Shown here one piece after another: positions 27,659-51,013 of a DNA stretch of 64,000 nt; positions within the stretch are counted from its first letter, which is position 1; the number at the start of each line of letters is the position of its first letter. Location of the stretch: assembly GCA_945285915.1 (NCBI GenBank), contig CALYQL010000007.1, positions 1-64,000 on the forward strand. Direction: 5' to 3'. This DNA is from an uncultured Bartonella sp. (GTDB taxonomy: Bacteria > Pseudomonadota > Alphaproteobacteria > Rhizobiales > Rhizobiaceae). The notes beneath the pieces are model-generated. The model did no database searches. It was not told where the DNA came from and worked only from the letters and a program-made list of their open reading frames with translations. Both the position numbers and the translations under genes were made by a program.

Positions 27659-28399
27659 ATGAATAACATAATAAACACCAAAGAATATAATGATAGAAAA
27701 ATCGAATTTTTGAGCGAAGAATTTGGTAGGGAGGGATACGTAAAGTTACCCAATTTTTTCAGTGATGTGTATTTTAAAGCGCTAAATGATGAAATTGCTC
27801 GTTTATCAAAACATAAGTTGAGGCGAGATTTTATTATGCAGGAATATGATTCACCTCGAAATTTATCAGTTTTAGGCGGTTCTCTGATAAAAAAAGAAAG
27901 TGCTGCTTTGCTGGCGTTATACAATATGGATCTTATTAGGTTTTATTTATCTAGTTTGACCAAAACCGAGATTCATCCAGTAAAACATACAGAAGAATAT
28001 ATGGTTGTTAATATATTGGATGGTGCTAGGGATACGCATGGTTGGCATTTAGATGATCCGGATTACGCTTTGATAATTTGTTTGGAAGCGCCAAGTGAGG
28101 GATGTGGCGGAGATATCGAGTATGTCAAAGATTGGCAAAATTTCTGCCTTGAGAATAGAGAAAAAACATCACTTTCAGAACTTATACGTCTGGCGTCAGA
28201 AGATGGGCGTATTATTCGGGATCATTTGAATACTTACGAATGCTATTTGTTACATGCGTCAAAGTCGATGCATAGAGTTACTCCGTTAACCTGTGATAAT
28301 CAAAGGCGTGTAGCGATTAATCTGGCTTTTCATTCTCGCCCTAACATCGACTTTGGTACGACAGCAGATCAGTTGTACGGGGCGGGTCAAAATGCATGA
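27659..28399 (+). CDS. Fe(II)/2-oxoglutarate-dependent oxygenase (HalD/ArpA-like)
   Basis: A 246-residue protein from the ATG at 27659 behind GGGAGA. The facial triad looks intact: HLD at His130/Asp132 in HGWHLDDPDY and a distal His205 in HRVTPL, with 2-oxoglutarate-binding Arg at 216-217 (RRVAINLAF). Relatives act on free amino acids or small acids. Halogenating cousins such as BesD carry Gly where this one has Asp132, so hydroxylation or desaturation is more likely than chlorination. It is the first gene of the + strand block and overlaps the SDR by 8 bp. Confidence 0.8.
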   Translation: MNNIINTKEYNDRKIEFLSEEFGREGYVKLPNFFSDVYFKALNDEIARLSKHKLRRDFIMQEYDSPRNLSVLGGSLIKKESAALLALYNMDLIRFYLSSLTKTEIHPVKHTEEYMVVNILDGARDTHGWHLDDPDYALIICLEAPSEGCGGDIEYVKDWQNFCLENREKTSLSELIRLASEDGRIIRDHLNTYECYLLHASKSMHRVTPLTCDNQRRVAINLAFHSRPNIDFGTTADQLYGAGQNA

Positions 28400-29141
28400 A
28401 TTTAATGGAAAAAATGTTATAATAACTGGTGGTGCCGGTGGGATGGGATTGGCGATAGCGGATGTTTTTTTTCAGGCGGGAGCGCGTGTACATATATTTG
28501 ATAAATGTAATCCTGAAAAATTTGATCAAATTAATAAGCGAAAATATATTTTTCATTGTGTTGATGTAACTGATGAAAAGATAATAGAAAATTCTATTTC
28601 AAGTATATGTGAAGGAAAAACAAGTATTAATGTATTGGTTAACTGTGCTGGAATTACAATCCGTAAAGATGCATTGAGTCTAACTCTTGATGAATGGAAT
28701 TGCGTTATTGATGTTAATCTTACAGGAACATTTTTATGTAGTAAATATGCACTGAAATATATGAAAACAGGTAGTGCTATAATTAATATATCATCTGGTT
28801 GGGGATTATCTGGTGGTGTCAAAGCTGTAGCGTATTGCGCATCGAAAGGAGGAGTGGTGCAGCTAACAAGAGCAATGGCTCTGGACTGTGCCCCATTGGG
28901 GATACGAATAAATTGCGTTTGTCCTGGAGATACAAATACTCCAATGTTAATTGATGAAGCACTACAGCTATCTTTACCTGGAGATGCGTTTTTAAAAGAA
29001 GGTTCTAATAGGCCTCTTGGTCGTGTCGGTAATCCTGAAGATATAGCCAATGCAGTTTGGTTTTTGGCGTCACCTAAGTCATCTTTTATCACGGGAACTA
29101 CTTTAATTGTTGATGGTGGAAGTCTAGCGGGAACTCAATGA
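28392..29141 (+). CDS. Short-chain dehydrogenase/reductase
   Basis: A 249-residue classical SDR started at the ATG at 28392, inside the end of the oxygenase gene. The cofactor motif is TGGAGGMGLAIA, followed by LVNCAGIT. The catalytic triad is in IINISSGWG and Y148-x3-K152 (YCASKGG). PG motif sequence IRINCVCPGDTNTPM and the C-terminal FITGTTLIVDGG are typical. An Asp after the second beta strand (IFDKCN) favours NAD. Coupling to the oxygenase suggests it oxidises the new hydroxyl group or reduces a partner ketone. Confidence 0.92.
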   Translation: MHEFNGKNVIITGGAGGMGLAIADVFFQAGARVHIFDKCNPEKFDQINKRKYIFHCVDVTDEKIIENSISSICEGKTSINVLVNCAGITIRKDALSLTLDEWNCVIDVNLTGTFLCSKYALKYMKTGSAIINISSGWGLSGGVKAVAYCASKGGVVQLTRAMALDCAPLGIRINCVCPGDTNTPMLIDEALQLSLPGDAFLKEGSNRPLGRVGNPEDIANAVWFLASPKSSFITGTTLIVDGGSLAGTQ

Positions 29142-29171
29142 TGTAAATTAACTGCTTAGGGAGGAATAATT

Positions 29172-30383
29172 ATGAAATTGACTGTAACGTCTGATCCAGA
29201 TAGTGCAAAAGATATTATATTACGAAAAATAACAAGTCTTAATTATAAAAATATAAATTATCAAAGTAATTTAGATGGGTTACTAGAAAAAATACCTGAA
29301 ATTTCTAAGAAAGAATTACAAAAATTTGCTGATAAAAAATTTGATAGTTTCTTAGAAAATGGTTTTGTGTTTAGCGAAACTTCTGGAACAACTGGTAATC
29401 CTTTGCCAACGCCAAGAAACTCCATTGATTATAAATGGAATACATTAAACCAAATAACTGCTTACAAACGACATCTACAATCTGGGCAAGACAGAATAGC
29501 AGTTTTGCATCCGTCAATTTTAAGCCCTTTTATAGAGGCATCAATATCTGCACTTCAACTACTAAATATAGGATATCTCCGTATCTATCCGATACCAAAT
29601 GTTTGTAACTATGAAAGGATAATTTCTGTACTAGAAAGGTATAAAGTGACGGCAATTATGTCAACGCCAAGTCTCGTATATAAATTGTTATATGAGTGTA
29701 AGAAAATAACAGGAAATTATCCCACATATTTAAAAAAGATTTTATTAACTGGGGAGTTTATTTCATCTCATAACCTTAACAATATGAGGCGAATGTTAGG
29801 CGATCACTCTAAGGTTGTTCCTTTTGTTTATGGATCTAGTGAAGCCGCTTCCCTGATGTATGGAATAGAAGATGGTGGGTATGTGGGGTTCGAAAGTGAT
29901 TTTATATTTGAAGTCGTACCATATTCTGATGCAACTGAAATAACTATTAACGAAGAACAATATGCTTATTCTGGGTGTTTATTGGTGAGTTGGTTGCGTT
30001 CCGGTCTCTTACCTATCATCAGATATAATACCAATGATTTTGTGAAAGTGAGAAAAACGAATGATCAATTTGTTTTTTATCCTCAAGGGCGCATTATTGA
30101 TTACCCGATAAGCTTAAAGAATAGAATTGAATTGGATAAGATTTTATATAGTGACAATGATAATGTAATATATAACTATACGTTGCGAGCTAATAATTCA
30201 TTATCAAAAGTAGAAATAACAGTAATAACTGATAATACCGAAAAAAAATTATCAGAATTTTGTAAAGATAAAATATCTGTTTTATTTCCAAAATCCAAAA
30301 TTGACATTCGATATAATGAGGGAGAATTCCTGAATTTTTCTCCGAAGCCAAAATACGATATATATTTGAAATTCAACGATTAA
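29172..30383 (+). CDS. PaaK-like adenylate-forming ligase
   Basis: A 403-residue member of the phenylacetate-CoA-ligase branch of the ANL superfamily, with GGGAGGA before the ATG. The ATP loop is ETSGTTGNPLPTPRN, the adenine motif is FVYGSSEAAS, and the hinge region is LPIIRYNTNDFVKV. A Lys near the C-terminus (SPKPKYDIYL) could be catalytic. It would activate a carboxylic acid as AMP-ester, then pass it to CoA or an amine. No carrier protein is encoded nearby. The substrate is unknown; an aromatic acid is a reasonable guess from the rest of the locus. Confidence 0.82.
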   Translation: MKLTVTSDPDSAKDIILRKITSLNYKNINYQSNLDGLLEKIPEISKKELQKFADKKFDSFLENGFVFSETSGTTGNPLPTPRNSIDYKWNTLNQITAYKRHLQSGQDRIAVLHPSILSPFIEASISALQLLNIGYLRIYPIPNVCNYERIISVLERYKVTAIMSTPSLVYKLLYECKKITGNYPTYLKKILLTGEFISSHNLNNMRRMLGDHSKVVPFVYGSSEAASLMYGIEDGGYVGFESDFIFEVVPYSDATEITINEEQYAYSGCLLVSWLRSGLLPIIRYNTNDFVKVRKTNDQFVFYPQGRIIDYPISLKNRIELDKILYSDNDNVIYNYTLRANNSLSKVEITVITDNTEKKLSEFCKDKISVLFPKSKIDIRYNEGEFLNFSPKPKYDIYLKFND

Positions 30384-30414: not shown

Positions 30415-31140
30415 ATGAATACCTATCAATGGCTTATTGTTGATTTTATAATTGTCTGTGTATATGGACTTCAACATACACTTTTAACAACCAAAATAGC
30501 TGTTAAAATTTATAATAATGTCCTCCCATCTTATACATGGAATTTATCTTATAGTGTTTTTTCAGTTATAACCTTGGTATTAGGTTTTAAATATTGGGAA
30601 ACATCTGGTGTATACATATTTTATTTGGAACCAGGTAGCGCCCTGTTTCATTTGTTTGTTATTGGCTTGGCTTTATCTTTGTTTTTCTTTTTCTTTTGCT
30701 TTAAATATACTACATCTTTTTTTCAGTGGATTGGTATAAAGCAAATTATCACGAAAATTACAAAAACTAAGGCTCCAACGTATTATAGAGTGCGGCAGGA
30801 AGGTATTAAGAGATATATTAGATTTCCGCATCACACGTGTTTGATTTTCCTGTTTTGGCTGCATCCTGTCATGACACTCGATACTCTTTTTTTAGCTATA
30901 GCAGCCACTGCTTATCTTTACCTTGGTACATGGCATCAAGATAAGCGGGGAGAATACATAATAGGAGAACAATGGACAGAGTACCAAAAAGTTACAAACT
31001 TACTCTTACCTGGTGTAAATTCCTTTCGCCGCATGAAAGAAGACTTCCAAGCATGGAAGAAAGCTAATGTAAAAGAAATAGATGAGGGGGGGGTGATATC
31101 AGAGAAAGAAAAAAATGATCCAGTTAATAATATAGCTTAG
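30415..31140 (+). CDS. Membrane methyltransferase-like protein (NnrU/ICMT/MddA family)
   Basis: A 241-residue protein with about five or six hydrophobic helices. VYGLQHTLLTT near the N-terminus resembles the NnrU/MddA start. The C-terminal RFPHHTCLIFLFWLHPVMT and LGTWHQDKRGEYIIGEQW match the conserved SAM-binding core of isoprenylcysteine carboxyl methyltransferases and methanethiol methyltransferase, including the Glu-x-x-hydrophobic-G pattern. A hydrophilic tail follows. It may methylate a carboxyl, thiol or other group on a membrane-soluble intermediate. A non-catalytic NnrU-like role cannot be excluded. Confidence 0.65.
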   Translation: MNTYQWLIVDFIIVCVYGLQHTLLTTKIAVKIYNNVLPSYTWNLSYSVFSVITLVLGFKYWETSGVYIFYLEPGSALFHLFVIGLALSLFFFFFCFKYTTSFFQWIGIKQIITKITKTKAPTYYRVRQEGIKRYIRFPHHTCLIFLFWLHPVMTLDTLFLAIAATAYLYLGTWHQDKRGEYIIGEQWTEYQKVTNLLLPGVNSFRRMKEDFQAWKKANVKEIDEGGVISEKEKNDPVNNIA

Positions 31141-31244
31141 GATTTTATAGGTAAAAATAAAATATTTTAATATTTATTGCTTAATATACAAAACTATAGT
31201 TTTGTTAGGTGATAATATGTAAAGTACAAATAAGGAATGAAAAC

Positions 31245-32015
31245 GTGAACAATGATAAATTTTATAAGACGGTTATACTTGGAATAGAATCCGTATTAAA
31301 AAATGAACTTGATAAGTTCACGCTAGATGATATGGGCGGCGGTTATAAGGCATATTCCATTAAAAAACCTGGCAAAGAACTATCGCAGGCCGCACAAGCA
31401 GCGATTTATGATGTGTATGTTCCTCTCACATCCCATGCTTTTGGAGCTGATATGACCCTGTATTGGCGCACAAGAAAAGAAGAACAGTATATGGAACGAA
31501 CGGAGGAGCTGGTTCTTGTTGCAGATAAGAACAACGATTTGGTTGGATGGACAAGCTATAGTTTGGTGAAAGCCGATAAATCGACCATTATTTATAACGA
31601 TTCATCTGGAATTACGCCACCTCATCAGAAGAATAAATTGATGAGTAGATTATTTCAGAAGCGTGTGTCTGATTGTATTGCTGAATATGCGGACGAAAAT
31701 ATTCCATTGTTGTTTGCCACCAGAACAGAAACACCAGTCATGTATGCTATGCAAAAGAAATTGACTGATATGCTTTATCCGAGTCCGGATTATCCTACAC
31801 CTGATTTTATCGGTGATCAGGCGTTAATTATGGCAGACTGGCTCGGACAAAAAGATAAATTAGACAAAAAGAGTTTAATTATCCGAAATGCATATGCAAT
31901 GCTTGATGAACTTTATGGTGAATTGCCTTCAAGTGGTGATGAGGTACTTGATCAGTGGATAAGGCATCAGGTTGGTCCTTTAGATGCATTTCTACTTATA
32001 GGCGTGGGGAATTAA
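31245..32015 (+). CDS. GNAT-like acyltransferase, putative
   Basis: A 256-residue protein. I place the start at the GTG at 31245 with AAGGA nine bases upstream; a GTG at 31209 would add 12 residues. The middle part has a GNAT-like run: EELVLVADKNNDLVGWTSY, a following strand, and then SRLFQKRVSDCIAEY with LLFATRTETPVMYAMQKKL. The region resembles an acyl-CoA-binding fold, but the classical Q/R-x-x-G-x-G/A loop is not clean. It sits 10 bp before the MFS gene. It may acylate the product for self-protection or as a tailoring step. Confidence 0.5.
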   Translation: MNNDKFYKTVILGIESVLKNELDKFTLDDMGGGYKAYSIKKPGKELSQAAQAAIYDVYVPLTSHAFGADMTLYWRTRKEEQYMERTEELVLVADKNNDLVGWTSYSLVKADKSTIIYNDSSGITPPHQKNKLMSRLFQKRVSDCIAEYADENIPLLFATRTETPVMYAMQKKLTDMLYPSPDYPTPDFIGDQALIMADWLGQKDKLDKKSLIIRNAYAMLDELYGELPSSGDEVLDQWIRHQVGPLDAFLLIGVGN

Positions 32016-32025: not shown

Positions 32026-33285
32026 ATGAAAAGCGATTATTCTTTTCGGAATTTAGCTTCTTGGTTGCTGGTTGCCACAGCGTATGCTGTGGCGTTTTTC
32101 CAGCGCATGGCTCCGCAATCGATAAATAATGAACTTGTTAATGTATTTAATCTGACGCCTACAGGTATTGCTGTCATCGCGTCCGGTTATTATTGGGGCT
32201 ATACGATTATGCAATTGCCTGCTGGTCCTTTAGTAGATCGATTTGGTTTGCGTAGGATGATTTTGATAAGCACTTTCTTATCAGCGTTAGGGAGTTTTTT
32301 ATTTTCTGTTTCAATTAATCCATCAATGGCATTTTTTTCCAGAGCATTATTAGCATGTGGAGATGCCTTCGTTTTTACAAGTTTGCTTAAGCTTGTTTCC
32401 GTTGGTTTTAAGGGTAACAATTTTGGTTTAATGTCTGGGTTATCTCAGGCATCTGGTTATATAGGCGGTGCTTTGGCGTCGGCTCCATTAGCTTTTTTAG
32501 CATCAAAGTATGGATTATTCGCTGTTTTTTCTTCGGTTTCACTCATTGTGTTGGCATTGTTCTTAGGGTGTTATGTATTTGTCAAAAATAATGAAGACCA
32601 TAAAGTTTTGATTAATGTTGGTGAGAACATCAAGCTCATAACAACGAAGATAATAAAGCATCGCGCTTTTTGGGCGATCTTGGCTGTAAATGCTGTGCAA
32701 ATAGCTATTATAACGATAATTGCTGGTGTTTGGGGATTAACAATGATTTCCAGCTATTTTTCTGTTAGTCCATCCATTGCGGGGTGGGGGATAATCATGT
32801 TTATGGCGGGAAGTCTTGCTGGAACGGTGGTTATTGGTAAGCTTGTTGATCTTGTAAATGACAATTCGGTTTTATTGTCATGGATATTATTAATTGAAAC
32901 AATTTCACTAGTCATCTTGTTTCCAGTTGTCGCCCAATACCTTGGTTTTGTGATAATAATTATAGATCTGTTTGTGTTGGGGTTTCTTACAGGTGGAAGC
33001 ATTCCATCTATTTTACACGCAGTGAAGCAGATATTTACAGTTTCACTGGTAAGTACAGGTGCCTCATTATGTATGACTGTAGCAGGTATTTTTACCGCGG
33101 CTATATTGCCGTTAATCGGCTGGATGATTTCAATGTATCAAATTGCAGAAAAAAGTAGCTTTGATAAAGATTTTTTACAAATACAATCATTCAATATAAT
33201 AATCGTTGTTTCTATTATAATTTCTATATTATCATTTTTTATTAGTTTCTTGTTACGTCAGACGCATATTAATAAATATAAATAG
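32026..33285 (+). CDS. MFS exporter
   Basis: A 419-residue transporter with about 12 helices. Motif A is GPLVDRFGLRRMILIS, and FFSRALLACGDAFVFTSLLKLV is helix 4. The first helix carries VAFFQRMAP, seen in anion and small-acid carriers as well as exporters. It is one of three MFS genes in the island and stands between the GNAT-like gene and nitronate monooxygenase. Export of the block A product or uptake of a precursor are both possible. Confidence 0.88.
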   Translation: MKSDYSFRNLASWLLVATAYAVAFFQRMAPQSINNELVNVFNLTPTGIAVIASGYYWGYTIMQLPAGPLVDRFGLRRMILISTFLSALGSFLFSVSINPSMAFFSRALLACGDAFVFTSLLKLVSVGFKGNNFGLMSGLSQASGYIGGALASAPLAFLASKYGLFAVFSSVSLIVLALFLGCYVFVKNNEDHKVLINVGENIKLITTKIIKHRAFWAILAVNAVQIAIITIIAGVWGLTMISSYFSVSPSIAGWGIIMFMAGSLAGTVVIGKLVDLVNDNSVLLSWILLIETISLVILFPVVAQYLGFVIIIIDLFVLGFLTGGSIPSILHAVKQIFTVSLVSTGASLCMTVAGIFTAAILPLIGWMISMYQIAEKSSFDKDFLQIQSFNIIIVVSIIISILSFFISFLLRQTHINKYK

Positions 33286-33341: not shown

Positions 33342-34415
33342 ATGTTTTCAGGTTTAAAAACCAATATAAGGTCACGTATAATACAAGCACCCATGGCAGG
33401 TGTTTCCACACCCGAAATGGCAGCGGCAGTATCAAATAGCGGTTCAATAGGTTCGATTGGTTTGGGCGGTATTAAACCAGATGATGCAGTAACAATCATT
33501 GAAAAAACAAAACAACTCACTGATCGTCCTTTTAACATTAATCTATTTTGTCATGATCCGTCTGTAAATATTGATCCATCAAAAGAAACAGGATGGCGTC
33601 AGCTTATTAACACAAGTCACTTTAATGGAAAAAATATCTTAGATGCACCGCTGAGAAATATTTATCAGTCTATAAAGTCCAACATAGCATTGGCCAATGC
33701 TGTAGCATCTCAAGATCCAAAGATAATAAGCTTCCATTTTGGTGTGCCAGATGAGGAAATAATCAGTATTTTTAGGAGGACTGGCGCGAAACTTATTGCG
33801 ACGGCGACTAGCCTTGAAGAGGGGCAATACATCGTGCAGAGAGGTCTTGATGGCATTGTTGCACAAGGATTTGAGGCAGGGGGACATAGAGGTGTTTTTG
33901 ACGTATCAAAGTATGATGAATGTTTGTCTACTCGTGCCCTAACGCGCCTTCTGGTGGAAAATGTTTCCGTTCCTGTCATTGCTGCTGGCGGAATAATGAC
34001 AGGAAGCGATATTGCGTCTCTATTGTCGATAGGAGCAGCCGGTGTGCAGTTGGGGAGCGCTTTTTTAGCTTGCGATGAGAGTTCAGCAACGAAAAGACAC
34101 AAAGAGCTAATTCGGTCCAAGCCGCGAATTGCGACGGCAATGACACGTGTGATATCTGGCCGTCCAGCAAGATCGATTTTAACGCCCTTTGTCGAATGGG
34201 GCTTTCATGTCATGGGCAAGGATATACCTGAATATCCATATAGTTATGACGCATTCAAGCAAATGCAGAAAAGAAAATCAAATGAAGGGGACGGTGATAT
34301 TGGACCCTTTTGGGCAGGACAAAATGCGTCATTTGCTCAGTTCATGAAGGCGGAAAAAATAATAGAGGTGCTTGAAAAGGAGTATAATGAGTATGTTTCA
34401 GGAATAAGTATATGA
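33342..34415 (+). CDS. Nitronate monooxygenase (2-nitropropane dioxygenase family)
   Basis: A 357-residue FMN TIM-barrel protein. MAGVSTPEMAAAVSNSGSIGSIG is the N-terminal FMN region. The sequence IVAQGFEAGGHRG holds the catalytic His. PVIAAGGIMTG and GVQLGSAFLACDES bind phosphate of FMN. The family oxidises nitronates such as propionate-3-nitronate to the semialdehyde and nitrite or nitrate. Its presence beside a putative N-oxygenase operon suggests protection from, or processing of, a nitro or nitronate intermediate. It ends block A, and AGGATG precedes its ATG. Confidence 0.9.
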   Translation: MFSGLKTNIRSRIIQAPMAGVSTPEMAAAVSNSGSIGSIGLGGIKPDDAVTIIEKTKQLTDRPFNINLFCHDPSVNIDPSKETGWRQLINTSHFNGKNILDAPLRNIYQSIKSNIALANAVASQDPKIISFHFGVPDEEIISIFRRTGAKLIATATSLEEGQYIVQRGLDGIVAQGFEAGGHRGVFDVSKYDECLSTRALTRLLVENVSVPVIAAGGIMTGSDIASLLSIGAAGVQLGSAFLACDESSATKRHKELIRSKPRIATAMTRVISGRPARSILTPFVEWGFHVMGKDIPEYPYSYDAFKQMQKRKSNEGDGDIGPFWAGQNASFAQFMKAEKIIEVLEKEYNEYVSGISI

Positions 34416-37507: not shown

Positions 37508-37822
37508 CTAGAGATCAACAAATTCAGTCGCTATAGCATAAACACACCCTGATTCAGAGGCAATAGACTGATGCCTCTTCATTGAAGGGAGGAATATCAC
37601 GTCGCCAGGATTACAATACACAGTCACATCATCATAATAAAAGGTTAAGCCTCCTTCAATAATTACTAATGTTTCATCATTTTGATGTTGATGCCATTTA
37701 TGACATTTTAGCGGTTCATCACGCTGAAATTCTATACACCCTTGTTTGGGTAGCATCTTATAAAGCAGCGAAAATATGTCTTGTTTGCTTCCTAGATCAA
37801 TTTTATCTATTTTAACGTCCAT
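37508..37822 (-). CDS. Mono-domain cupin of the N-oxygenase operon
   Basis: A 104-residue cupin. The metal motif is seen as KCHKWHQHQNDETLVIIEGG (His, His, Glu spacing) and the second motif as PGDVIFLPSMKRHQSIA. Four bases separate it from the YqcI/YcgG gene, so the two are surely co-translated. Small cupins beside amine N-oxygenases can rearrange N-hydroxylated amino acids or make N-N bonds, as in streptozotocin or hydrazine-forming systems. That role here is inferred from context. A plain metal-binding or thioester-trimming role is possible. Confidence 0.85.
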   Translation of the reverse strand: MDVKIDKIDLGSKQDIFSLLYKMLPKQGCIEFQRDEPLKCHKWHQHQNDETLVIIEGGLTFYYDDVTVYCNPGDVIFLPSMKRHQSIASESGCVYAIATEFVDL

Positions 37823-41997: not shown

Positions 41998-42005
41998 GGT
42001 GCGTT

Positions 42006-43760
42006 ATGGACAATGTTGAACAGTTGACCGAGGTAAGGCATAAGTTATTTGCGGATCAGAGTTTAGGTGCTGGTAATTTCTTTTTTAAGGCGTTAAGTGC
42101 ATATCCAAATATGGATGCAGACTATATCTATCTTGAAAAAGAATTTATTGCACCTAATGGGAAGGTCTACAAAAGCTTTTCATTAAATTCTTTGTATGAA
42201 GTCGTTAAAAGCGTCGCGGCGTGGTATCAAAATTATGATATTGCTCCAAAATCGTTTGTTTGCGTTTTTGTTGATGATGGTATCGGAACCTTTATTCATT
42301 TTTTAGCGCTCAATAGCTTATTATTGAGGCCTGTTCTAATTAATAGAAAAATAAATCCGAGTATACTTAGTCAATATGCAAAGAAGTATGAGTTTTCTTA
42401 TCTTGTCACTGATAGTCAGACTTGGTCTGAAAACATTGCAAAACTTGAAAATATCAAAAAGATCAAAGAGACCTTCACTGCGGATGTTGAGACGGAAGTT
42501 GGTCGACTGAGCGAATTTTGGCCATACGAGCATTCAAACGATGACATAGTAATGGTTTGCCATAGTTCGGGGACTACTGGGATTCCTAAGGCTGTAACAT
42601 TTGGGCATAAACAATTTTTTGATGGTAAGCGTGAACGCTTGCTTAGCTTTATTGAGAACAAATCTGATAGGCTTATTACCGCCATGCCTCCAACACATGC
42701 TGCGGGTATTAGTTATATCATGACTGCTACGATGTTACAGCTTCCCTGTATGGTGATGAGCAATCAATTAGGGGAAGATCTATCGAATGCAATCAAGTCG
42801 TTCAAGCCGACGGTGATGACCGCGTTTTCGCAATCGTACGCTTCTTTGGCGTCACTGAAGAACCTTAAGCCTGGTGATTTCGCTTCTCTAGAGAGATTTT
42901 ATAATACAGGTGATACAGCACATCAGGCGCATATAAGGCGTTTATTGGAACTAGCACCTAATGCTCGTTTCATTGATATGTTTGGTTCTTCTGAACTCGG
43001 TATGTCGCAATTCTATAAGACAACGAAACATGACACAAAAAGTTACCCACGTACCGTCGGGCATGTTGCATCATATGCTGAAGGGGCAATTTTGTCACCG
43101 CAAGGCGATAAACTCGGTTATTTCGAAGTAGGGTATATAGGGGTAAAGTCTCCAACCATTACGCCTGGATATCTTGATCGTCCGACTTTGTCCTCGCTAT
43201 CAAGACTAAATGGGTATTGGTTAACCGGAGATATCGGTCTACAGAGAGATAATGGAGAATTTATTCATCTGGATCGTATTACAGATACCATAAATACGCC
43301 ATTGGGTTCTCCAGGATATACTCTTTTAATCGAAGAGCATATTTTATCCAATTTAGATATAGAAGATGTTTCAGTTGTTGGTGCTAATCGTGGGCCGACA
43401 CGCCAAGAATCCACAATTATTTTTGTTAAAGAGAGCGATATATTAGAAAAGCAGAATGTATCACTTGAAAGAATACTTGAAGTTGCTCTTAGCTGTTATC
43501 CCTTTGCAGGAATTGAGACGTTGCCAGATATGTCCGTGGGCGTGTGTTTGTTATCATCGGAAAATGGTATCAAACTAGGTGCCACCGGTAAAGTTATAAA
43601 GCACGCTTTAAAAAGTGACTTTTGGGAAAATTATGAACGTTTTCTAACTAATAAATCTTCAGTTATTAAAGATATAATTTGGAATAAACCATCACACGTA
43701 ACACAAAACTACGTTGCTAACCAAATTCCATTAGTTAACTATCTTAAAAGCCAAGAGTAA
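42006..43760 (+). CDS. Acyl-CoA synthetase (AMP-forming), large form
   Basis: A 584-residue ANL enzyme from the ATG at 42006 with GAGGTG upstream; an earlier ATG at 41994 overlaps the previous stop. [17 protein letters not shown] is the ATP loop, [15 protein letters not shown] the adenine motif, [15 protein letters not shown] the ribose Asp and [10 protein letters not shown] the catalytic Lys. It is longer than benzoate-CoA ligases. It precedes paaA by only 4 bp, so it may feed the acyl-CoA substrate to the Paa complex. The exact acid is unknown. Confidence 0.85.
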
Positions 43761-43764
43761 CAAT

Positions 43765-44706
43765 ATGGAAAAAATCAGCTCCGATGAAGAACTATACTTT
43801 CAAGATCGAATTGATCGAGGGGAGAAAATTGAGGTTCATGACTGGATGCCAGATGGTTACAGAAAGACACTCATAAGACAAATTACACAACACGCAAACT
43901 CTGAATATGTTGGTATGTTGCCCGAAAGCAATTGGCTAGCAAAAGCACCTTCTTTGAACAGAAAAGCTATATTATTAGCAAAAGTTCAAGATGAGGCTGG
44001 TCATGCGCAATATCTTTATTCTGTGCTTGAAGGTCTTGGTGTGTCGCGAGCTGATTTATATGACGATCTTTACTCTGGAAGATCTAAATATCTGAATATA
44101 TTCAATTATCCTGCTATGACTTGGGCAGATGTTGGTATGATAGGGTGGCTCACTGACGGGGCGGCTATTATAAACCAAGTCCCCTTATCAGAGTGTTCAT
44201 ATGGCCCATATGCCCGCGCGATGAAAAGAATATGTCAAGAAGAGAGTTTTCATAATCGGCAAGGATTCGAGCTAGTGCTCGAACTTATAAAATCAGGCAG
44301 CAAAGGCAAAGCACAAGCTCAAAATGCTTTAAATCGTTGGTGGTGGCCAACAATAATGGTTTTTGGACCACCAGATGATAAATCAATACACAGTGCTAAT
44401 TCAATGAAATGGAAAATTAAATTATTCACAAACGACACACTGCGACAAAAATTTGTCAACCAAACAGTTCCTCAAATTGAATATTTAGGATTAAAAGTTC
44501 CAGATAGCGAGTGCATTTTTGATCCTGAACGCGGTCAGTACACAATCGGGAAAATAAATTGGGATGAGTTTAATAGTGTACTGAAGGGAAATGGGCTTTG
44601 TAATGCCAGCAGGCTAACCGCAAGGGAAAAAGCTTGGAAAACAAATAGTTGGGTTCGTGAAGCCGCTACTTATGCGCAAATAAATAAATTTAAGGTGGGG
44701 GTATAG
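43765..44706 (+). CDS. paaA: Aryl-CoA epoxidase catalytic subunit PaaA
   Basis: A 313-residue ferritin-like protein, as long as E. coli PaaA. Diiron motifs are intact: E77-x2-H80 in QDEAGHAQ and E160-x2-H163 in [10 protein letters not shown]. Strong family sequence includes [40 protein letters not shown] and [16 protein letters not shown]. In the known pathway the PaaABCE complex converts phenylacetyl-CoA into its 1,2-epoxide using O2 and NADPH. The gene order paaABCDE is conserved, but no ring-opening genes follow. Substrate here may differ. Confidence 0.95.
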
Positions 44707-44707: not shown

Positions 44708-44989
44708 ATGAGTAATCCTCAACTATGGGAAGTGTTTCTTTGTGAAACAAATGGCGGAAGTCACCAGCATATCGGATCAGTTATGGCCGCAGATCCTAAA
44801 ATGGCACTGCAAAATGCAAGAGATGTATTTTTAAGACGCGGTTCCTTTCAAAGTCTTTGGGTGGTTAAAAGCAACGAGATATATTCTATAGATCGGATCG
44901 ATAATGATTATTATTTCAATAATAGTATAGGAAAGGACTATCGAGAGGCCGAAAGCTATAAATTAGCAAAGCAAGTTAAAGGCCTTTAA
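44708..44989 (+). CDS. paaB: Aryl-CoA epoxidase subunit PaaB
   Basis: A 93-residue PaaB. LWEVFLCETNGGSHQHIGSV and RDVFLRRGSFQSLWVVKS match the family N- and middle parts. It has no cofactor and bridges subunits of the monooxygenase. One base separates it from paaA, and two bases from paaC. Confidence 0.93.
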   Translation: MSNPQLWEVFLCETNGGSHQHIGSVMAADPKMALQNARDVFLRRGSFQSLWVVKSNEIYSIDRIDNDYYFNNSIGKDYREAESYKLAKQVKGL

Positions 44990-44991: not shown

Positions 44992-45726
44992 ATGTCTAGT
45001 AAGATCGTTCAATTAAATGATTTGTACTTGATGCTTGGTGATAGTTGTTTGATACTTTCCCATCAGTTAACGTCTTGGATCGGTAAAGCGCCAGTCTTGG
45101 AAGAGGAATTGGCGATATCAAATATAGCCCAAGATTTGTTGGGGCAGGCGCGTAGTTGGTATGCGGAATTAACCAAAAAGGATGTATCTAAGACCGAAGA
45201 TCATATTGCATATGAGCGAGAAATCGACGAATTTAACAACTGTTTGCTTGCAGAAATTGCAGATGAGAATTTTGCACAATTAGAAGTTAGACAATACTTC
45301 TTCGATGTTTGGCATAAACTTATTTTAAATGAGCTAACTCAATTTTCTGCTGAAAATATTGCTGTAATCTCAAAAAGAAATATTAGTGATGTTCTTTATC
45401 ATGTTGAGCATAGTGAACACTGGATAAATATTTTTGCAACAGGAACACAATATAGCAAAGAGTTATGCCAGTCAGCAATAGATATATACTGGCCATATAT
45501 AGATTACCTTCTAGATGATTTATCAATAGTTGACGGAGATAAATTGTTAGGAACAATTTCAATACGTGCACTGTGGAATGAAATAATTGACAAGAAATTT
45601 CGGGAATTAGATCTATGTAAACCGACGATCGCACCGATTTTTAGATTTGATAAATATAATTATCATACCGAGAATTTATCTAATATTCTCAATGAGATGC
45701 GATCAGTTCGGGGAAATTACTTTTAG
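44992..45726 (+). CDS. paaC: Aryl-CoA epoxidase structural subunit PaaC
   Basis: A 244-residue ferritin-like protein that pairs with PaaA. LGDSCLILSHQLTSWIGKAP and the following EEELAISNIAQDLLGQARSW, then VLYHVEHSEHWI, are typical. In described systems PaaC lacks a working metal site and holds PaaA in shape; the sequence here fits that structural role. Confidence 0.92.
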   Translation: MSSKIVQLNDLYLMLGDSCLILSHQLTSWIGKAPVLEEELAISNIAQDLLGQARSWYAELTKKDVSKTEDHIAYEREIDEFNNCLLAEIADENFAQLEVRQYFFDVWHKLILNELTQFSAENIAVISKRNISDVLYHVEHSEHWINIFATGTQYSKELCQSAIDIYWPYIDYLLDDLSIVDGDKLLGTISIRALWNEIIDKKFRELDLCKPTIAPIFRFDKYNYHTENLSNILNEMRSVRGNYF

Positions 45727-45734: not shown

Positions 45735-46235
45735 ATGTCAGAAAAAGTGCGGGAAATCGAAGATATCTATAAAATTTTAAATGACATTAAAGATCCAGAA
45801 ATGCCATTTATTTCAATTGTAGATCTAGGTATGATAAGAAAATTATACTATGAAGATAATATACTAAATATTATATATACACTTACTTATACTGCCTGTT
45901 CTGCAAAGACATATATTTTAAAAGAAATAGAAAGAACATTGAAGTTAAATGGAATAAAAAAAATACATTTAACTGAACAAATATATCCGTCATGGACAAC
46001 TGATTGGATCAGCGAAACCGGTATCCGCAACATAGTTGCGCAAGGAATTGCGGCTCCCAAAAAGGAATGTTCGAGTTGCGCCGCAAGCCGTGTCATTCAA
46101 GGAAATACTTATCGCTGCCCGTTATGTGGAAGTGAAAATTCCACGCTCAAGTCTAGATATTCCGGCACAGTATGTAAGTCGTTATATATTTGTAATGATT
46201 GTTCAAATCCGTTTGATGCCGTTAGAAGAAAGTAA
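45735..46235 (+). CDS. paaD: Metal-cluster assembly protein PaaD
   Basis: A 166-residue PaaD. The N-terminal DUF59/MIP18-like domain (about 1-95) has DIKDPEMPFISIVDLGMI and the reactive Cys region YTACSA. The C-terminal zinc-ribbon-like part has four CxxC-type pairs (CSSC, CPLC, VC, CNDC). PaaD is thought to assist iron cluster or diiron maturation of the Paa monooxygenase. Spacing of 8 bp after paaC. Confidence 0.92.
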   Translation: MSEKVREIEDIYKILNDIKDPEMPFISIVDLGMIRKLYYEDNILNIIYTLTYTACSAKTYILKEIERTLKLNGIKKIHLTEQIYPSWTTDWISETGIRNIVAQGIAAPKKECSSCAASRVIQGNTYRCPLCGSENSTLKSRYSGTVCKSLYICNDCSNPFDAVRRK

Positions 46236-46240: not shown

Positions 46241-47284
46241 ATGCTAAGAAATATAACACTTAAGCTTATTGAGAAAAAATTTGATACTGAAAATTCATCT
46301 ATTTTAAATTTCAGCTTTGATGCCGATATTAAAGAAGTAGTATGTGGGCAACATATTACTTTGATAAAAACGCTTAACAATCAGGAAGTACGCAGAAGTT
46401 ATTCTTTACTTGATAGTGGAGCGAAAGGCGTATTCTCTATTGCTGTAAAGAGAGTTGAAGGTGGCATTTTTTCAAACTGGATATTGGATGAGCTAGAGAT
46501 AGGACAAAATATTGATGCCATCGAACCAGCTGGATCTTTCTATAATGATAGCGTAGGTTTGGATAACGAAACCATTCTCGCCATCACCGTTGGTAGTGGC
46601 ATTACACCAATTTATGCGATTTCTGAATATATACTTGAAACGTTTCCAAATAAAAAGCTAATTCTTTTTTATGGTAATAGAACGCGTCGGGAAGTTATGC
46701 TTTCGGATTATTTAGTAAATCTAAAAAATCGTTTTAAAGACAGATTACTTATTTATTACTTTTATTCTCAAGTTGCGTCATTTACAAAGCAAATTGACGG
46801 ACGAATGGACGTTGAGAAGATCATCAATATAATAAAACATAATAACATTTCTTCTGTAAAAGACTGTTTTTTGTGCGGACCAACAGACTTATTGCGAGAC
46901 TTTTCTGTTGGATTAAAAGACAACTTTGAAGGCATAAAATTACATCAGGAGACATACCACGCGGATACAATTCCTATATTACCCGTTAATGCAAATATAA
47001 CAAAAAATAGCAATATAACGGCGATTATAAATGGTAGTCTATACAAGATAAACAATATTGATCCTTCAATAACAATCTTAGATAATTTAATTAATAAAAG
47101 TATTAATGTAGATTATTCCTGTAAATCGGGAATCTGTTCAGCTTGTAAGTGTAAAATTATTGAAGGAAAAGTGAAAAACGTTGAAGACTTTTCACTAACA
47201 GACGAGGATAGGCAGCAAAAAATTATCCTTTCGTGTTGTTCATTTCCAGATTCTAACAATCTCGTAATTTCATTCGATTTGTAG
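46241..47284 (+). CDS. paaE: NADPH-dependent reductase subunit PaaE
   Basis: A 347-residue ferredoxin-NADP reductase-like protein. The FAD motif is RRSYSLLDSG, the nicotinamide part is ITVGSGITPIYAISEY, and the C-terminal plant-type 2Fe-2S domain shows CKSGICSACKCKI with a last Cys in LSCCSFPD. It passes electrons from NADPH through FAD and the cluster to PaaA. It follows paaD by 5 bp, completing a five-subunit set. Confidence 0.94.
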   Translation: MLRNITLKLIEKKFDTENSSILNFSFDADIKEVVCGQHITLIKTLNNQEVRRSYSLLDSGAKGVFSIAVKRVEGGIFSNWILDELEIGQNIDAIEPAGSFYNDSVGLDNETILAITVGSGITPIYAISEYILETFPNKKLILFYGNRTRREVMLSDYLVNLKNRFKDRLLIYYFYSQVASFTKQIDGRMDVEKIINIIKHNNISSVKDCFLCGPTDLLRDFSVGLKDNFEGIKLHQETYHADTIPILPVNANITKNSNITAIINGSLYKINNIDPSITILDNLINKSINVDYSCKSGICSACKCKIIEGKVKNVEDFSLTDEDRQQKIILSCCSFPDSNNLVISFDL

Positions 47285-47293
47285 GTGCGTAGA

Positions 47294-48457
47294 ATGAGTG
47301 GAGAAGCACGTCAAACGCTTAACGCATTGGTTTTTAGCCTAATTACTGGGATTTCAGTAGGAGCAGTGGTATTCCATCAATCGATGGCCGAATTGATTTC
47401 TCGCACACTTCAAGTATCACCGAGTATGATGTGGTCATTATCGGTATGCACCCAAATGGGCTATGTACTAGGTTTAGTATTTATTTTGCCACTAGCTGAT
47501 AAAATTGGTCTTTTTAAATTAATACCTATAGTCCTTGTTAGTCTAGGAACCGCTCTGGTAGTAATGAGCTTTCTTGATAATATATGGCCAGTATACATTG
47601 ACTTATTTGTCATTGGTTTTTCTTCTATAAGCGGACAACTATTGATTATCTATGCATCTAAACTGACATCTATTAATGAAAAAAAATATATTTTGGCATG
47701 GCTCTTTTCCAGTTTATTTACGGGGCTTGTCTTAGCTCGTATCCTCTCTGGTATTATTGCAACTTATTTTAAATGGCAGTTAGTCTATTTAATATTCGGT
47801 ATTGCAATACTTATACTGTCCGTCATTGTCAGAAAAATGATTTCGCAGACAAATACTATAAATTATAAATATATAGATGTTCTGAAAGAGCAGATAAATT
47901 TATTAATACATGAAAAAAAACTCATATTTTATGCTGTGCTTTCGGCAATTTTCTTCGCGGCATCCAATGGTATATGGGCTAACATAAGCAATTATTGCTA
48001 TAGAGAGTTGAATATGACCAGCAGTGCCGTAGGTATCCTAGCGACAGCGTCATTAACGACAATTCTATCTCCGAAAATAGTAAATATTCTTCTGAAAAAA
48101 ATAGATACGAAAGCAGTTATAAAATATAACATACTGCTATTATTAACCGTTTCACTTGTAATTATGTTATTTAATATAAGTATAATCAATGTTGGATTAT
48201 TCCTTATATTTTCTGAATATTCTGTTAGGTCAGTACAATATGCGAGCCAAACGGAAGTACTTTCTATCGATCCGAATAAATCTGGTCGTTTAAATGGCGT
48301 TTTTATGTCAATTTTTTTTATAGGTGCTCCTATTGGATCTTACTTCGGGGGCATAGTTGTAGAGAACTTTCGATCAATTGGATTGTTCTTATTTCCGATC
48401 ATTTGCATGCTGATATGTGCGCTTTGGTACGTCTTTATGGCGAAGCGTATACAATAA
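47294..48457 (+). CDS. MFS exporter after paaE
   Basis: A 387-residue transporter, about 12 helices, begun at the ATG at 47294; a GTG at 47285 adds three residues. LPLADKIGLFKLIPIVLVS is motif A and the later EVLSIDPNKSGRLNGVFMS is typical of aromatic-acid or drug carriers. It is the third MFS gene in the island, located between paaE and the aryl-CoA ligase, so it may import the aryl acid or export the product. Confidence 0.87.
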   Translation: MSGEARQTLNALVFSLITGISVGAVVFHQSMAELISRTLQVSPSMMWSLSVCTQMGYVLGLVFILPLADKIGLFKLIPIVLVSLGTALVVMSFLDNIWPVYIDLFVIGFSSISGQLLIIYASKLTSINEKKYILAWLFSSLFTGLVLARILSGIIATYFKWQLVYLIFGIAILILSVIVRKMISQTNTINYKYIDVLKEQINLLIHEKKLIFYAVLSAIFFAASNGIWANISNYCYRELNMTSSAVGILATASLTTILSPKIVNILLKKIDTKAVIKYNILLLLTVSLVIMLFNISIINVGLFLIFSEYSVRSVQYASQTEVLSIDPNKSGRLNGVFMSIFFIGAPIGSYFGGIVVENFRSIGLFLFPIICMLICALWYVFMAKRIQ

Positions 48458-48493: not shown

Positions 48494-49993
48494 ATGAACT
48501 TAGTCGAGATGATTTTCGATGAGGGAGGAAAGAATCCTTCCAAGGTTGCTATTAAAGGGTTAGATTTTTGCTATAGCTACAGGGAAGTGGCATTTGCCAT
48601 ATCAAATAGATATAGAGAACTTAAACGCATTAATTTAAACAAAAATGACACGGTAGCGATATTCTTAAATGATGGTCCGCTGTTATATATTTATTTCTAT
48701 GCAATTATAGCTGTAGGTGCGATACCTGTGGTTTTGAATCCGAAGAGTTCGGCAGAGTTAATTGAATTTTATATCAATGATCTACAGCCGAAATTGGTCA
48801 TAAGTGAGCATTCAATCATAACTCAGCACCAGGTGCAAAAAATTATCGTTGAATCTGATGCGATCGCGGAAGAGTGGAAGCTTGATTGCGAGTTAATTAA
48901 TCCCGTAGAAAAAGACGAAACAGAGATATTGTTGATCCAATATACATCGGGAAGTACAGGCCAGCCAAAAGGTGTAATACACACTAACCAATCCGTAAGT
49001 GCTTTCTGTACGAGTTTTGCGCTTAAGACACTTCAATTAACAGAAGAAGATATAATTTATTCTGTCCCTAAATCTTTTTTTGGTTTTGGGATGGGGAATT
49101 CTTTGCTTTTTTCGGTATTTATGCGTTGTACTACTGTATTAGATCCTGAATGGCCGCAAGTAGAAAGAATAATAAGAATTATTTCTGAAACAAATGTCAC
49201 TGTATTCTTTGGAGTTCCGACCATATATAGGGAGATCAGCAAACTTCCAGAATCCAATGTATTTGATAAAGTACGAATTTGTTTTGCAGCTGGTGCTCCG
49301 CTCTCCTACAATATCGTGTGTAACTGGGCAAAAAAATACAACCATAGGATCTATAACGGTATTGGTTCGACTGAACTAGGACATGTATTTGCGTCTAACT
49401 ACAATATCTCGAATGAGCTGGATAATTCGTGTGGAGTTATTTTGACAGGGTGGCAATACAAAATTCTAGATGTAAATAACGAACCCGTACCGCCTGGGGA
49501 AAAAGGCGTTTTATTGGTAAAAGGAAAAGGTAAATTTAAAGGCTATTGGAAGGGATCTGGATTTGAATATAATAAAATTACCAGTGATGAGTGGTATCGG
49601 ACAGGGGATATATTTTCAATAGATAAAGACCAAGGTACCCTTATGTTTCATGGTAGAGAAGATGATCGCTTCAAGGTAAAAGGAAGATGGGTGAACCCTA
49701 TAGAGGTTGAACATAGTATCACGAGTAGTTTTCCTGAGGTAGGAGAATGTTATACATGTCCTATTGAAGATGCGGAAGGCGATCAGCAATCAGTTTTGAT
49801 AGTTCATGGCGATACTGGTGAGTTTGATTATGAAATGCAATTACGCTCAATACTTCATAATTATCAAAGACCTTCTCTCGTAATTCATCTAGAACAAATT
49901 CCTAAGAATTCAAACGGTAAACCAGACAGATCGGCGCTACGAGTGATAGCTCAGACAGCATTTGATGCAGATTTAGCGAAGAATAATATATGA
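48494..49993 (+). CDS. Benzoate-CoA-ligase-like aryl-CoA synthetase
   Basis: A 499-residue ANL enzyme near benzoate/4-hydroxybenzoate-CoA ligases in length and motif set. LIQYTSGSTGQPKGVIHTNQ is the ATP loop, IGSTELGHVF the adenine motif, WYRTGDIFSIDKDQGTLMF the ribose Asp, and KNSNGKPDRSALR the catalytic Lys. SYREV and GVPTIYREISKLP are typical of aromatic-acid ligases. It likely makes the aryl-CoA substrate for PaaABCE. Spacing of 36 bp after the MFS gene keeps it in the operon. Confidence 0.88.
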   Translation: MNLVEMIFDEGGKNPSKVAIKGLDFCYSYREVAFAISNRYRELKRINLNKNDTVAIFLNDGPLLYIYFYAIIAVGAIPVVLNPKSSAELIEFYINDLQPKLVISEHSIITQHQVQKIIVESDAIAEEWKLDCELINPVEKDETEILLIQYTSGSTGQPKGVIHTNQSVSAFCTSFALKTLQLTEEDIIYSVPKSFFGFGMGNSLLFSVFMRCTTVLDPEWPQVERIIRIISETNVTVFFGVPTIYREISKLPESNVFDKVRICFAAGAPLSYNIVCNWAKKYNHRIYNGIGSTELGHVFASNYNISNELDNSCGVILTGWQYKILDVNNEPVPPGEKGVLLVKGKGKFKGYWKGSGFEYNKITSDEWYRTGDIFSIDKDQGTLMFHGREDDRFKVKGRWVNPIEVEHSITSSFPEVGECYTCPIEDAEGDQQSVLIVHGDTGEFDYEMQLRSILHNYQRPSLVIHLEQIPKNSNGKPDRSALRVIAQTAFDADLAKNNI

Positions 49994-50211
49994 TGTACGG
50001 AAAATAGTAAAAAATGTGATCACAAGAACGTTGATAAATCTTTATACGAAATGGTAGCATTTGAACTCACTTCGATAATTATATCTTTTGAACTTTCTTA
50101 TTTAATAAAGTTGGAATAATTACCGAAGTTACCCAAAAACATTGTTGAAATCGTGAATGTCTCTCAAACAAGGTTATTATAACAGTAGGCGTTATTTCAG
50201 AGGTTATTTAA
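49994..50211 (+). promoter_or_regulatory. Intergenic region before the thioesterase, possible internal promoter
   Basis: This 218-bp gap is the largest within block D. It has AT-rich tracts but no clear -35/-10 pair. It may contain a promoter for the thioesterase-RidA pair. Confidence 0.3.
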
Positions 50212-50622
50212 ATGAGAAAGTTTAGTCGACAATATCGCATTCGATTTTCACATTGCGATCTCGCTGGTATCGCTTTTTATCCAGAACTTGTAAAGCTAAC
50301 AAATTGGGTTTTGGAGGATTGGTATTCAGAGATGGAGGAATCTTATCTAGATCTGTTAAATCATAGGAACATTGTAACGCCTGTTGTTAAGTTAGAATAT
50401 GAGTTTATTAAACCGATACGGTTAGAAGATGTTGTTGTAATGAATTTAGAAATTGTAAATATAGGACACTCTTCGGTATCTGTTCGAATAAACGCCGATT
50501 GCAATAATAGTACTCATTTTCGCTGTTCCCAGACTATTGTACATGTGGATACAAAAACACAGAAAGCGATAGAAATACCTGAAGCTTTGCGCGCGAAGAT
50601 GGAGGTTTATAAAAATGAATGA
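50212..50622 (+). CDS. 4-hydroxybenzoyl-CoA thioesterase-family protein
   Basis: A 136-residue hotdog-fold protein. FSHCDLAGIAFYPELVKLTNW carries the active Asp in HCD and the helix that binds the thioester. PIRLEDVVVMNLEIVNIGHSS and FRCSQTIVHVD fit the second half. It would release an aryl-CoA product as a free acid, which gives the locus an exit from the CoA stage. It overlaps the RidA-like gene by 8 bp. Confidence 0.9.
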   Translation: MRKFSRQYRIRFSHCDLAGIAFYPELVKLTNWVLEDWYSEMEESYLDLLNHRNIVTPVVKLEYEFIKPIRLEDVVVMNLEIVNIGHSSVSVRINADCNNSTHFRCSQTIVHVDTKTQKAIEIPEALRAKMEVYKNE

Positions 50623-51013
50623 GATAATTTTACCCGATGGGTGGAAACGACCACGAGGCTATAGCAACGGGTTATTGAATACTGATAAAAACATTTTATT
50701 CACATCTGGGCAATTTGGCTGGGATGAGAATGAGACTCTTGTGTCAACTGATTATGTTGCGCAGGTCAAACAAGTGTTGCTGAATATTGCAGAAATCATT
50801 AGAAAATCTAACTTAAGTGTTAGTGATATTGTATTTCTTAGATGGTATATTACTGATGCAGATTTATTTTATAATAAATCTAAAGAAGTATCTTCTTTAT
50901 TCAAAGAAATAATAGGATTTTATCCACCAATGACTGCAATTTGTGTATCAAAATTGCTTGTCGAAGGTGCATTGGTTCAAGTTGAAGCTATCGCGATAAA
51001 AAGTAATTCTTAA
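50615..51013 (+). CDS. RidA (YjgF/YER057c/UK114)-family protein, atypical
   Basis: A 132-residue RidA-fold protein with LFTSGQFGWDENE, a middle helix region, and YPPMTAICVSKLLVEGALVQ followed by VEAIAI. The catalytic Arg of enamine deaminases (usually in an ARSCVEV context) is replaced, here by Met-Thr after PP. It therefore belongs to the non-Rid1-3 groups. These often sit in aromatic or amino-acid pathways and may hydrolyse an imine or tautomerise an intermediate. It closes the island's + strand block. Confidence 0.85.
   Translation: MNEIILPDGWKRPRGYSNGLLNTDKNILFTSGQFGWDENETLVSTDYVAQVKQVLLNIAEIIRKSNLSVSDIVFLRWYITDADLFYNKSKEVSSLFKEIIGFYPPMTAICVSKLLVEGALVQVEAIAIKSNS

Follow-up and report, generated by a model that had tools for sequence, protein, structure and literature searches.

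The 64,000-nucleotide stretch analyzed here (the window) is part of contig CALYQL010000007.1 of an uncultured Bartonella sp. (assembly GCA_945285915.1; 2.52 Mb in 59 contigs), a member of an order that comprises many families. We examined the island at 27644-51013, which has a GC content of 35.7%, compared with 42.2% at 1-27000 and 42.8% at 52900-64000, in agreement with the AT-rich island described in a first-pass annotation of this DNA; a tRNA-Arg lies to its right, at 52865-52941 on the minus strand. The annotation had treated the whole island as one undescribed biosynthetic locus. We find instead that it consists of three separable modules, A (27644-34415), B (37508-41038, minus strand) and C (41126-51013), each of which occurs elsewhere without the other two, as judged within the stretches fetched around each locus. 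A MocR-type regulator gene at 35021-36514 probably belongs with module C. Module C, which encodes a diazotase-like ligase (LigA6), the five subunits PaaABCDE and a PqsA-like aryl-CoA ligase (BzLig), is the core of the island and, on the sequence comparisons below, appears to be a conserved biosynthetic-type cluster present in three proteobacterial classes.

An open reading frame and profile check recovered the genes at the positions given by the annotation, with families as named there or close to it. Gaps inside each arm run from -47 to 68 bp, with a single exception of 218 bp between 49993 and 50212, in line with the proposed operons. Five genes had gone unnamed, i.e., those encoding an SDR (28353), a weakly GNAT-like protein (31209), a DoxX/MauE-like protein (41126), an AhpD protein (41566) and RidA (50615).

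Gene content and conservation of module C

Module C contains the following genes, all of which are uninterrupted frames of family-typical length:

41126..41569, plus strand, DoxX/MauE-like membrane protein (weak PF07291; conserved in relatives)
41566..41997, plus strand, AhpD/CMD family protein (PF02627)
41994..43760, plus strand, LigA6, CreM/AvaA6/Tri17-type diazotase relative (NF058622, solved-structure matches, tree)
43765..44706, plus strand, PaaA (TIGR02156; tree)
44708..44989, plus strand, PaaB (TIGR02157)
44992..45726, plus strand, PaaC (TIGR02158)
45735..46235, plus strand, PaaD (TIGR02159)
46241..47284, plus strand, PaaE reductase (TIGR02160, under cut-off)
47285..48457, plus strand, MFS carrier, MFS3 (PF07690)
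48494..49993, plus strand, BzLig, PqsA-like aryl-CoA ligase (closest solved relative PqsA)
50212..50622, plus strand, hotdog thioesterase, 4HBT/YbgC-like (family profiles)
50615..51013, plus strand, RidA (PF01042)

We scanned genome contigs with an alignment of LigA6 and three relatives, which returned 346 relatives, and compared the island genes by tblastn to all of the best 80 loci. This analysis demonstrated that the genes encoding DoxX, AhpD, LigA6, PaaA-E, MFS3 and BzLig occur in identical order in Chromobacterium alkanivorans, C. haemolyticum and Lonsdalea quercina, and also in C. alticapitis, where AhpD was not detected; no further locus among the best 80 of 346 contains Paa genes. In all four relatives, genes for an HDO-cupin protein and a class-II DAHP synthase are located between MFS3 and BzLig (domains checked in Lonsdalea, where the DAHP synthase is joined to BzLig), and BzLig is then followed by TrpE, TrpG, thioesterase, RidA and a MocR gene on the opposite strand. 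Neither module A nor module B is found near module C in Chromobacterium and Lonsdalea, and YqcI, a module B protein, is absent from all three Chromobacterium genomes. Our confidence in the gene content and conservation of module C is high. The earlier proposal of an undescribed biosynthetic-type locus is thus upheld for a smaller unit, with an aryl-CoA epoxidase core and a gene order conserved in four genomes from two further proteobacterial classes, and not for all of the island genes as one locus; we found no description of module C in the titles and abstract openings of the open-licence literature.

A diverged LigA6 also occurs with BzLig, AhpD and DoxX in two loci of Xenorhabdus (L122, L123) and one of Rhizorhapis suberifaciens (L124), as shown by family search in L122 and by tblastn in L123 and L124. 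In place of PaaABCDE, these loci contain a flavoenzyme resembling the salicylyl-CoA 5-hydroxylase model, together with an acylating-aldehyde-dehydrogenase-like protein; TrpE was found in L122 and L124, and not in L123. We know of no product for this cluster type. In Pseudovibrio, a single frame of 1066 or 1068 aa (L109:9449-12649 and L116:4516-7722) matches both BzLig and LigA6; a hotdog-like gene after this fusion had no NCBIfam match and is not counted as support. Because of these loci, we conclude that BzLig and LigA6 recur together with different oxygenases.

LigA6, BzLig and the likely substrate

The annotation had counted two carboxylate ligases of the aryl/acyl-CoA type. This stands for BzLig, whereas LigA6 is closest to the diazotase AvaA6, a relationship that had been missed and that shifts the predicted chemistry towards N-N bond formation. 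The best NCBIfam model for LigA6 is AvaA6, 3-aminoavenalumate diazotase (NF058622), at 311.6 bits, with the next family at 126 bits, and its solved relatives are 8ztz (262.3 bits), 9xb8 (230.6 bits) and 9bq0 and 8tf7 (186.9 bits), the last two being structures of Tri17 according to the text available from PMC11705231; the best CoA ligase scores 61.9 bits. By these profile and structure scores, LigA6 is closer to characterized members of the CreM/AvaA6/Tri17 family than to CoA ligases. Glu334 of LigA6 is invariant in 10 of 10 aligned sequences, and we take it to be the counterpart of the Mg/ATP glutamate E352 of CreM, which lies outside this alignment. In an 85-row tree, made by a quick method, with several long branches and with neither AvaA6 nor CreM in it, the five Paa-linked ligases group together (SH-aLRT 99), nested within a larger clade of 12 proteobacterial ligases (99), around which CreE/CreD-linked actinomycete ligases are placed on more than one branch. 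On these scores and this tree, LigA6 appears to be a relative of AvaA6 and not AvaA6 itself, and it is likely to carry out N-N chemistry.

If LigA6 were instead an ordinary aryl-CoA or aryl-AMP ligase, the product would be a hydroxylated aminobenzoate, an amide or a ring-expanded compound made without N-N chemistry. Membership of the AMP-binding family (PF00501, 115.4 bits), the lack of CreE/CreD in the island and a score far below the AvaA6 equivalog cut-off of 975 bits all speak for this, and the last of these weighs against a diazotase. We consider it somewhat unlikely, since the scores for Tri17 and AvaA6 are far higher than those for any CoA ligase, the neighbors of LigA6 in the tree include CreE/CreD-linked clades, and CoA activation is already covered by the second ligase, BzLig.

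The ava, cma and cre clusters of actinomycetes (AvaA6, CmaA6 and CreM) likewise use a ligase of the CreM/AvaA6 type to handle an aryl amine. Unlike these clusters, the window has no CreE/CreD match at 26-53 kb and the genome no GriH-type DHQS-II, and a PqsA-like ligase and PaaABCDE are present instead; no PKS or carrier protein is among the families found, as the annotation had said. The GriH-type family PF01959, associated with 3-amino-4-hydroxybenzoate (3,4-AHBA), is absent from the source genome and was matched in 3 of 14 control genomes. We therefore rejected 3,4-AHBA, which the GriH/GriI genes of Klebsiella and Paludibacterium had suggested, as the amine in the case of the window. GriH/GriI-type 3,4-AHBA genes accompany a diazotase-like ligase in seven loci (L041, L053, L054, L055, L056, L058 and L063), all of which have an HDO match except L041, a plasmid of Klebsiella michiganensis BD177 from Bactrocera dorsalis.

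The closest solved relative of BzLig is the anthranilate-CoA ligase PqsA (216.6 bits, compared with 155.1 bits for benzoate-CoA ligase), and the genes for DAHP synthase, TrpE and TrpG beside the cluster in the four relatives point to anthranilate as substrate, so we consider it moderately probable that BzLig acts on anthranilate. In contrast to the PqsA system, none of the families identified in the island is a condensing enzyme of the quinolone type.

The five subunits of the 1,2-phenylacetyl-CoA epoxidase PaaABCDE are present in the same order as in that enzyme. PaaA, PaaB, PaaC and PaaD pass the cut-offs of TIGR02156, 02157, 02158 and 02159, and PaaA scores 424.3 bits to solved PaaA 3pvr; the complete set reported in the annotation therefore holds, with the qualification that PaaE reaches 226.8 bits with TIGR02160, under the cut-off of 420.8. 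The five cluster-type PaaA proteins form one clade (100/100), apart from 14 others. C. alkanivorans and C. haemolyticum each encode an additional PaaA that is of the other type and that in C. alkanivorans adjoins PaaG, PaaI and PaaK. The genus of the source genome has one other PaaA, in genome G076, whose neighbors we take for PaaK, PaaI, PaaG and PaaZ, as judged from their frames and from matches to some or all of them beside PaaA in three further genomes, with no family search.

These enzymes raise the alternative that module C degrades an aromatic acid via a hybrid CoA pathway, as aryl-CoA ligase, PaaABCDE, thioesterase and RidA are all familiar from catabolism. We regard this as quite unlikely. 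With the G076 genes as queries, PaaG, PaaZ, PaaI and catabolic PaaK had no match in the 64-kb window at 1e-6, PaaA is in a clade apart from catabolic PaaA, and the clusters of the relatives include the substrate-forming enzymes DAHP synthase, TrpE and TrpG. Phenylacetate catabolism itself we rejected, because of the lack of catabolic neighbors in the window and the separate PaaA clade; in contrast to the catabolic system, the partner genes indicate an aminobenzoyl-CoA.

Modules A and B and their history in sister species

Module B and the regulator gene consist of:

35021..36514, minus strand, MocR-type regulator, probably of module C (PdxR model and MocR of four relatives)
37508..37822, minus strand, free-standing cupin, 104 aa (PF07883)
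37827..38534, minus strand, YqcI/YcgG heme N-oxygenase (PF08892 212.5 bits; Cys38 at the position of the AglA heme ligand)
38544..39755, minus strand, ATP-grasp ligase, PRK07206/DdaF-like (family profile match)
39752..41038, minus strand, MFS carrier, MFS2 (family match just under cut-off)

The gaps from MFS2 through ATP-grasp and YqcI to the cupin are -4, 9 and 4 bp. This four-gene operon is intact, without modules A and C, in three further members of the genus (G023, G077 and G092; L154-L156), and PaaA was not found anywhere in these three genomes. In the genus comparison set (71 genomes of 1.4 to 2.9 Mb), 16 of 71 have a YqcI match, which spans most of the query without a break in the source genome, G077, G092 and G023 and is broken or partial elsewhere; the ATP-grasp protein was matched in 17 of 61 genomes, and in 14 of these the best match scores at least 240 bits. 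YqcI is not GntA (NF041366, 41.2 bits, under the cut-off of 145), and its Cys38 aligns with Cys44 of AglA, which the accessible part of PMC12866846 gives as the heme ligand. Module B resembles the N-nitrosation systems of streptozotocin (SznF) and chalkophomycin (ChmN/ChmM) in pairing a YqcI/YcgG protein with a cupin, and ChmN illustrates that a YqcI/YcgG protein can replace the HDO half of an SznF-type system, as stated in the portion of PMC11177257 available. Unlike in SznF, the module B cupin is a free protein of 104 aa and SznF is absent from its solved-structure matches; no SznF-type HDO and cupin in one protein is present in the window, where the best match to an SznF homologue at 26-53 kb is the cupin (E 0.05). 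Gloeothece (L047) has homologues of MFS2 (30%) and ATP-grasp (36%) next to a Rieske protein and an SznF homologue of full length (E 4.6e-104). Module B appears to be an autonomous operon of N-oxygenase, cupin, ATP-grasp ligase and exporter.

Module A comprises:

27644..28399, plus strand, HalD-type Fe/2OG amino-acid hydroxylase with HxD motif (PF23169 157 bits)
28353..29141, plus strand, SDR oxidoreductase (PF13561 187 bits; the overlap suggests a later true start than listed)
29172..30383, plus strand, short adenylate-forming ligase, like the "CoF synthetase" of Robbsia and B. glumae (43-45% identity)
30415..31140, plus strand, NnrU/MddA-like membrane protein (63% identity to Robbsia and B. 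glumae)
31209..32015, plus strand, weakly GNAT-like protein (PF00583 19.3 bits, under cut-off; 38-44% identity to Robbsia and B. glumae)
32026..33285, plus strand, MFS carrier of module A (PF07690)
33342..34415, plus strand, NMO/FabK-like flavoprotein, end of module A (PF03060 222.8 bits)

Plasmids of Robbsia andropogonis (L044) and Burkholderia glumae (L150) carry an operon that matches five of these genes, with identities of 39-40% for the HalD-type enzyme and 46% for the SDR, and those listed above for the other three; modules B and C are absent from both plasmid stretches, and the module A MFS and NMO genes had no match in them at 1e-3. A DUF3050 gene precedes the operon on both plasmids. 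In the source genome this partner had no match, which is weak evidence, since the control genomes gave none either. The Fe/2OG oxygenase named in the annotation is of the HalD type and belongs to the same family as the BesD/HalB/HalD halogenases and hydroxylases, but in contrast to BesD/HalB it has the sequence His135-Leu-Asp137, keeping the metal-binding Asp of lysine hydroxylases where HalB has Gly, and its partner genes are those of the Robbsia and B. glumae plasmids. We therefore rejected halogenation; module A would be a separate amino-acid hydroxylase operon. Profiles likewise bore out YqcI/YcgG, the cupin, NMO, ATP-grasp, the MFS carriers and the thioesterase, whereas the "PaaK-like" label of the ligase at 29172 describes a distant likeness (TIGR02155, 18.3 bits) and "membrane methyltransferase-like" for the protein at 30415 is based on low-scoring matches (NnrU 18.6 bits; MddA 66.7 bits, where the cut-off is 270).

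Seven sister genomes of the same genus document the history of this region (loci L019, L020 and L129-L134). Six of them (G006, G020, G064, G076, G079 and G082) retain MocR, DoxX and AhpD (approximately 90% identity) in the corresponding position, with AhpD only partial on contig L133, and in G017 DoxX and AhpD are on short contigs. ATP-grasp and MFS2 are also retained in G006, G020, G079 and G082, whereas G064 and G076 lack both and in G017 a contig end interrupts them; a fragment of YqcI is present in G006 and G082. Only broken matches to the first part of LigA6 (at most residues 1-235) are present in all seven, and neither Paa genes nor module A were found in the sister stretches; a PaaC match in G082 (E 5e-4) overlaps MocR and was taken as chance. 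Since the sisters keep the order seen in the window, we conclude that MocR, module B and the start of module C were together in the ancestor of these species, and module B adjoining module C appears to be an old arrangement in this clade. The sister orthologues of ATP-grasp, MFS2, DoxX and AhpD, at the same position, have approximately 42% GC (loci L019, L020, L131 and L132), so AT-richness alone is no proof of foreign origin; local drift or replacement from an AT-richer relative could account for the lower GC of the window modules.

Several further features of the sister loci were observed. DoxX and AhpD are intact in the seven sisters, although LigA6 is a relic there and no Paa genes were seen. 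Where the window has module A, G006 has urate-degradation genes before MocR (ureidoglycolate lyase, OHCU decarboxylase and HIUase; L018:8941-13665). To the right of the island, the sisters contain a tandem lipoprotein-like gene of approximately 120 aa, in seven copies in G020 (L020:6920-11489) and two in G006 (L019:6445-7507), and the one copy tested had no Pfam match.

That modules A, B and C form one pathway, as the annotation implied, is highly improbable. Physical closeness, a common AT-richness (34-37% GC by module), the adjacency of B and C in the sisters and the ATP-grasp and MFS genes that follow module A in B. glumae would fit such a pathway. Against it, module A occurs alone on the Robbsia and B. 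glumae plasmids and not in the sister stretches, module B alone in G077, G092 and G023, and module C alone in Chromobacterium and Lonsdalea. Independent occurrence of the blocks in other genomes, which the annotation had itself named as refuting a single locus, is thus largely what was found, with the reservation that B lies beside C in the sisters. The B. glumae ATP-grasp gene has no match to that of the window at 1e-3, and a link between A and B through this species was therefore rejected. A HalD-type gene and an ATP-grasp homologue (27-28%) also occur 1.6 to 2.1 kb apart on plasmids of Yersinia frederiksenii (L151) and Tistrella mobilis (L152).

Predicted chemistry and the source of oxidized nitrogen

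We propose that module C forms an aminobenzoyl-CoA, oxygenates its ring, releases the acid, diazotizes the amine and exports the product, a scheme to which we give an even chance. The PqsA-like ligase would make anthraniloyl-CoA or another aminobenzoyl-CoA, and the dedicated PaaABCDE would epoxidize or hydroxylate the ring at the CoA level. The hotdog thioesterase would then free the acid, with RidA clearing imine or enamine by-products, and the CreM/AvaA6-type ligase would diazotize the aryl amine with ATP and nitrite, to yield a compound resembling a quinone diazide or, if N2 is lost, a deaminated product, for export by the MFS carrier. Substrate, step order, product, direction (making versus breaking down) and any link between modules B and C are what we infer here. 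On this scheme, module B may also supply oxidized nitrogen, as the HDO-cupin protein may supply nitrite in the relatives, where we infer nitrite formation. A more specific version is a CoA-thioester diazo route, in which PaaABCDE acts on anthraniloyl-CoA, diazotization is ATP-dependent, and nitrite comes from an N-oxygenase and cupin and not from CreE/CreD, i.e., from the HDO-cupin protein in Chromobacterium, Lonsdalea and Xenorhabdus and from heme YqcI and the free cupin in the clade of the window. That YqcI and the cupin replace the HDO-cupin protein is speculative, with the NMO at 33342 another candidate for this role, and a functional link between modules B and C is rather doubtful.

Of the best 80 loci, 13 match the Lonsdalea HDO-cupin protein, 27 CreE and 24 CreD. 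HDO and CreE are never found in one locus, which makes an N-oxygenase nitrite source testable. GriH/GriI matches are also present in 6 of the 13 HDO loci. In the Lonsdalea protein, the HDO half resembles BesC-type and 4-aminobenzoate-synthase entries and the cupin half resembles gentisate dioxygenases, with SznF not among the matches; the entry named 4-chloro-allylglycine synthase is presumably BesC. The window MocR is 38-43% identical to the MocR beside module C in the four relatives, consistent with its assignment to this module.

A number of observations weigh against these proposals. CreE and CreD had no match at 26-53 kb (best E 0.9 and 1.3), leaving the island without a recognized nitrite source. 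The HDO-cupin protein, DAHP synthase, TrpE and TrpG are lacking from the same interval, with no convincing relic, and the pathway may therefore be incomplete or remodeled; in favor of the scheme, the source genome has one TrpE-like frame elsewhere, at C7:81309 (283 bits, under the model cut-off), but the HDO-cupin protein had no match in it (best E 0.135). MocR follows RidA in the relatives and precedes DoxX in the window, with module B between, and it passes the model of the pyridoxine regulator PdxR (355.6 bits against a cut-off of 320), so its tie to module C is uncertain. Sorted by record titles, the HDO loci are all non-actinomycete and the CreE loci all actinomycete, and ancestry alone could thus explain their separation. 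Furthermore, 19 of the 80 loci are non-actinomycete, and the HDO match found in 13 of them is missing from six (L106, L109, L115, L116, L124 and the 4.4-kb fragment L121). HDO matches outside L048-L051, L122 and L123 cover only part of the query, that in L052 being also approximately 9 kb from the ligase, and among the 24 CreD matches, that in L109 has an identity of only 25%. Module B is intact without C in three genus members, and Lonsdalea and Ramlibacter (2 of 11 genomes) carry a distant YqcI (30-31%) elsewhere besides their HDO gene, both of which weaken the idea that YqcI replaces HDO. Because of these last two findings and the position of MocR in the relatives, we lowered our estimate of the CoA-thioester diazo route, which we now consider distinctly doubtful.

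The missing partner genes also raise the question of whether module C of the window is decaying and makes nothing now, as all seven sisters keep only relics of LigA6 and the window lacks four genes of the relatives' cluster. Every module C gene is an uninterrupted frame of family-typical length, with tight gaps, and we judge decay to be very unlikely.

Compounds with an N-N bond, including diazo compounds, are rare as well as reactive, and the literature consulted describes diazotase clusters from actinomycetes. Module C is a compact Gram-negative gene set that keeps a CoA ligase, a di-iron aryl-CoA oxygenase and a diazotase-like ligase together and, from its gene content, would be a new variant of diazotase-containing cluster, in which the diazotase-like ligase is combined with a CoA ligase and PaaABCDE. 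In the part of a 2024 study available (PMC10777205), 72 of 134 ava-related clusters had no recognized nitrite genes, and their source of nitrite was left open. If the proposed route is true, an N-oxygenase and a cupin would provide a further source of nitrous acid for diazotases, which could explain clusters without CreE/CreD.

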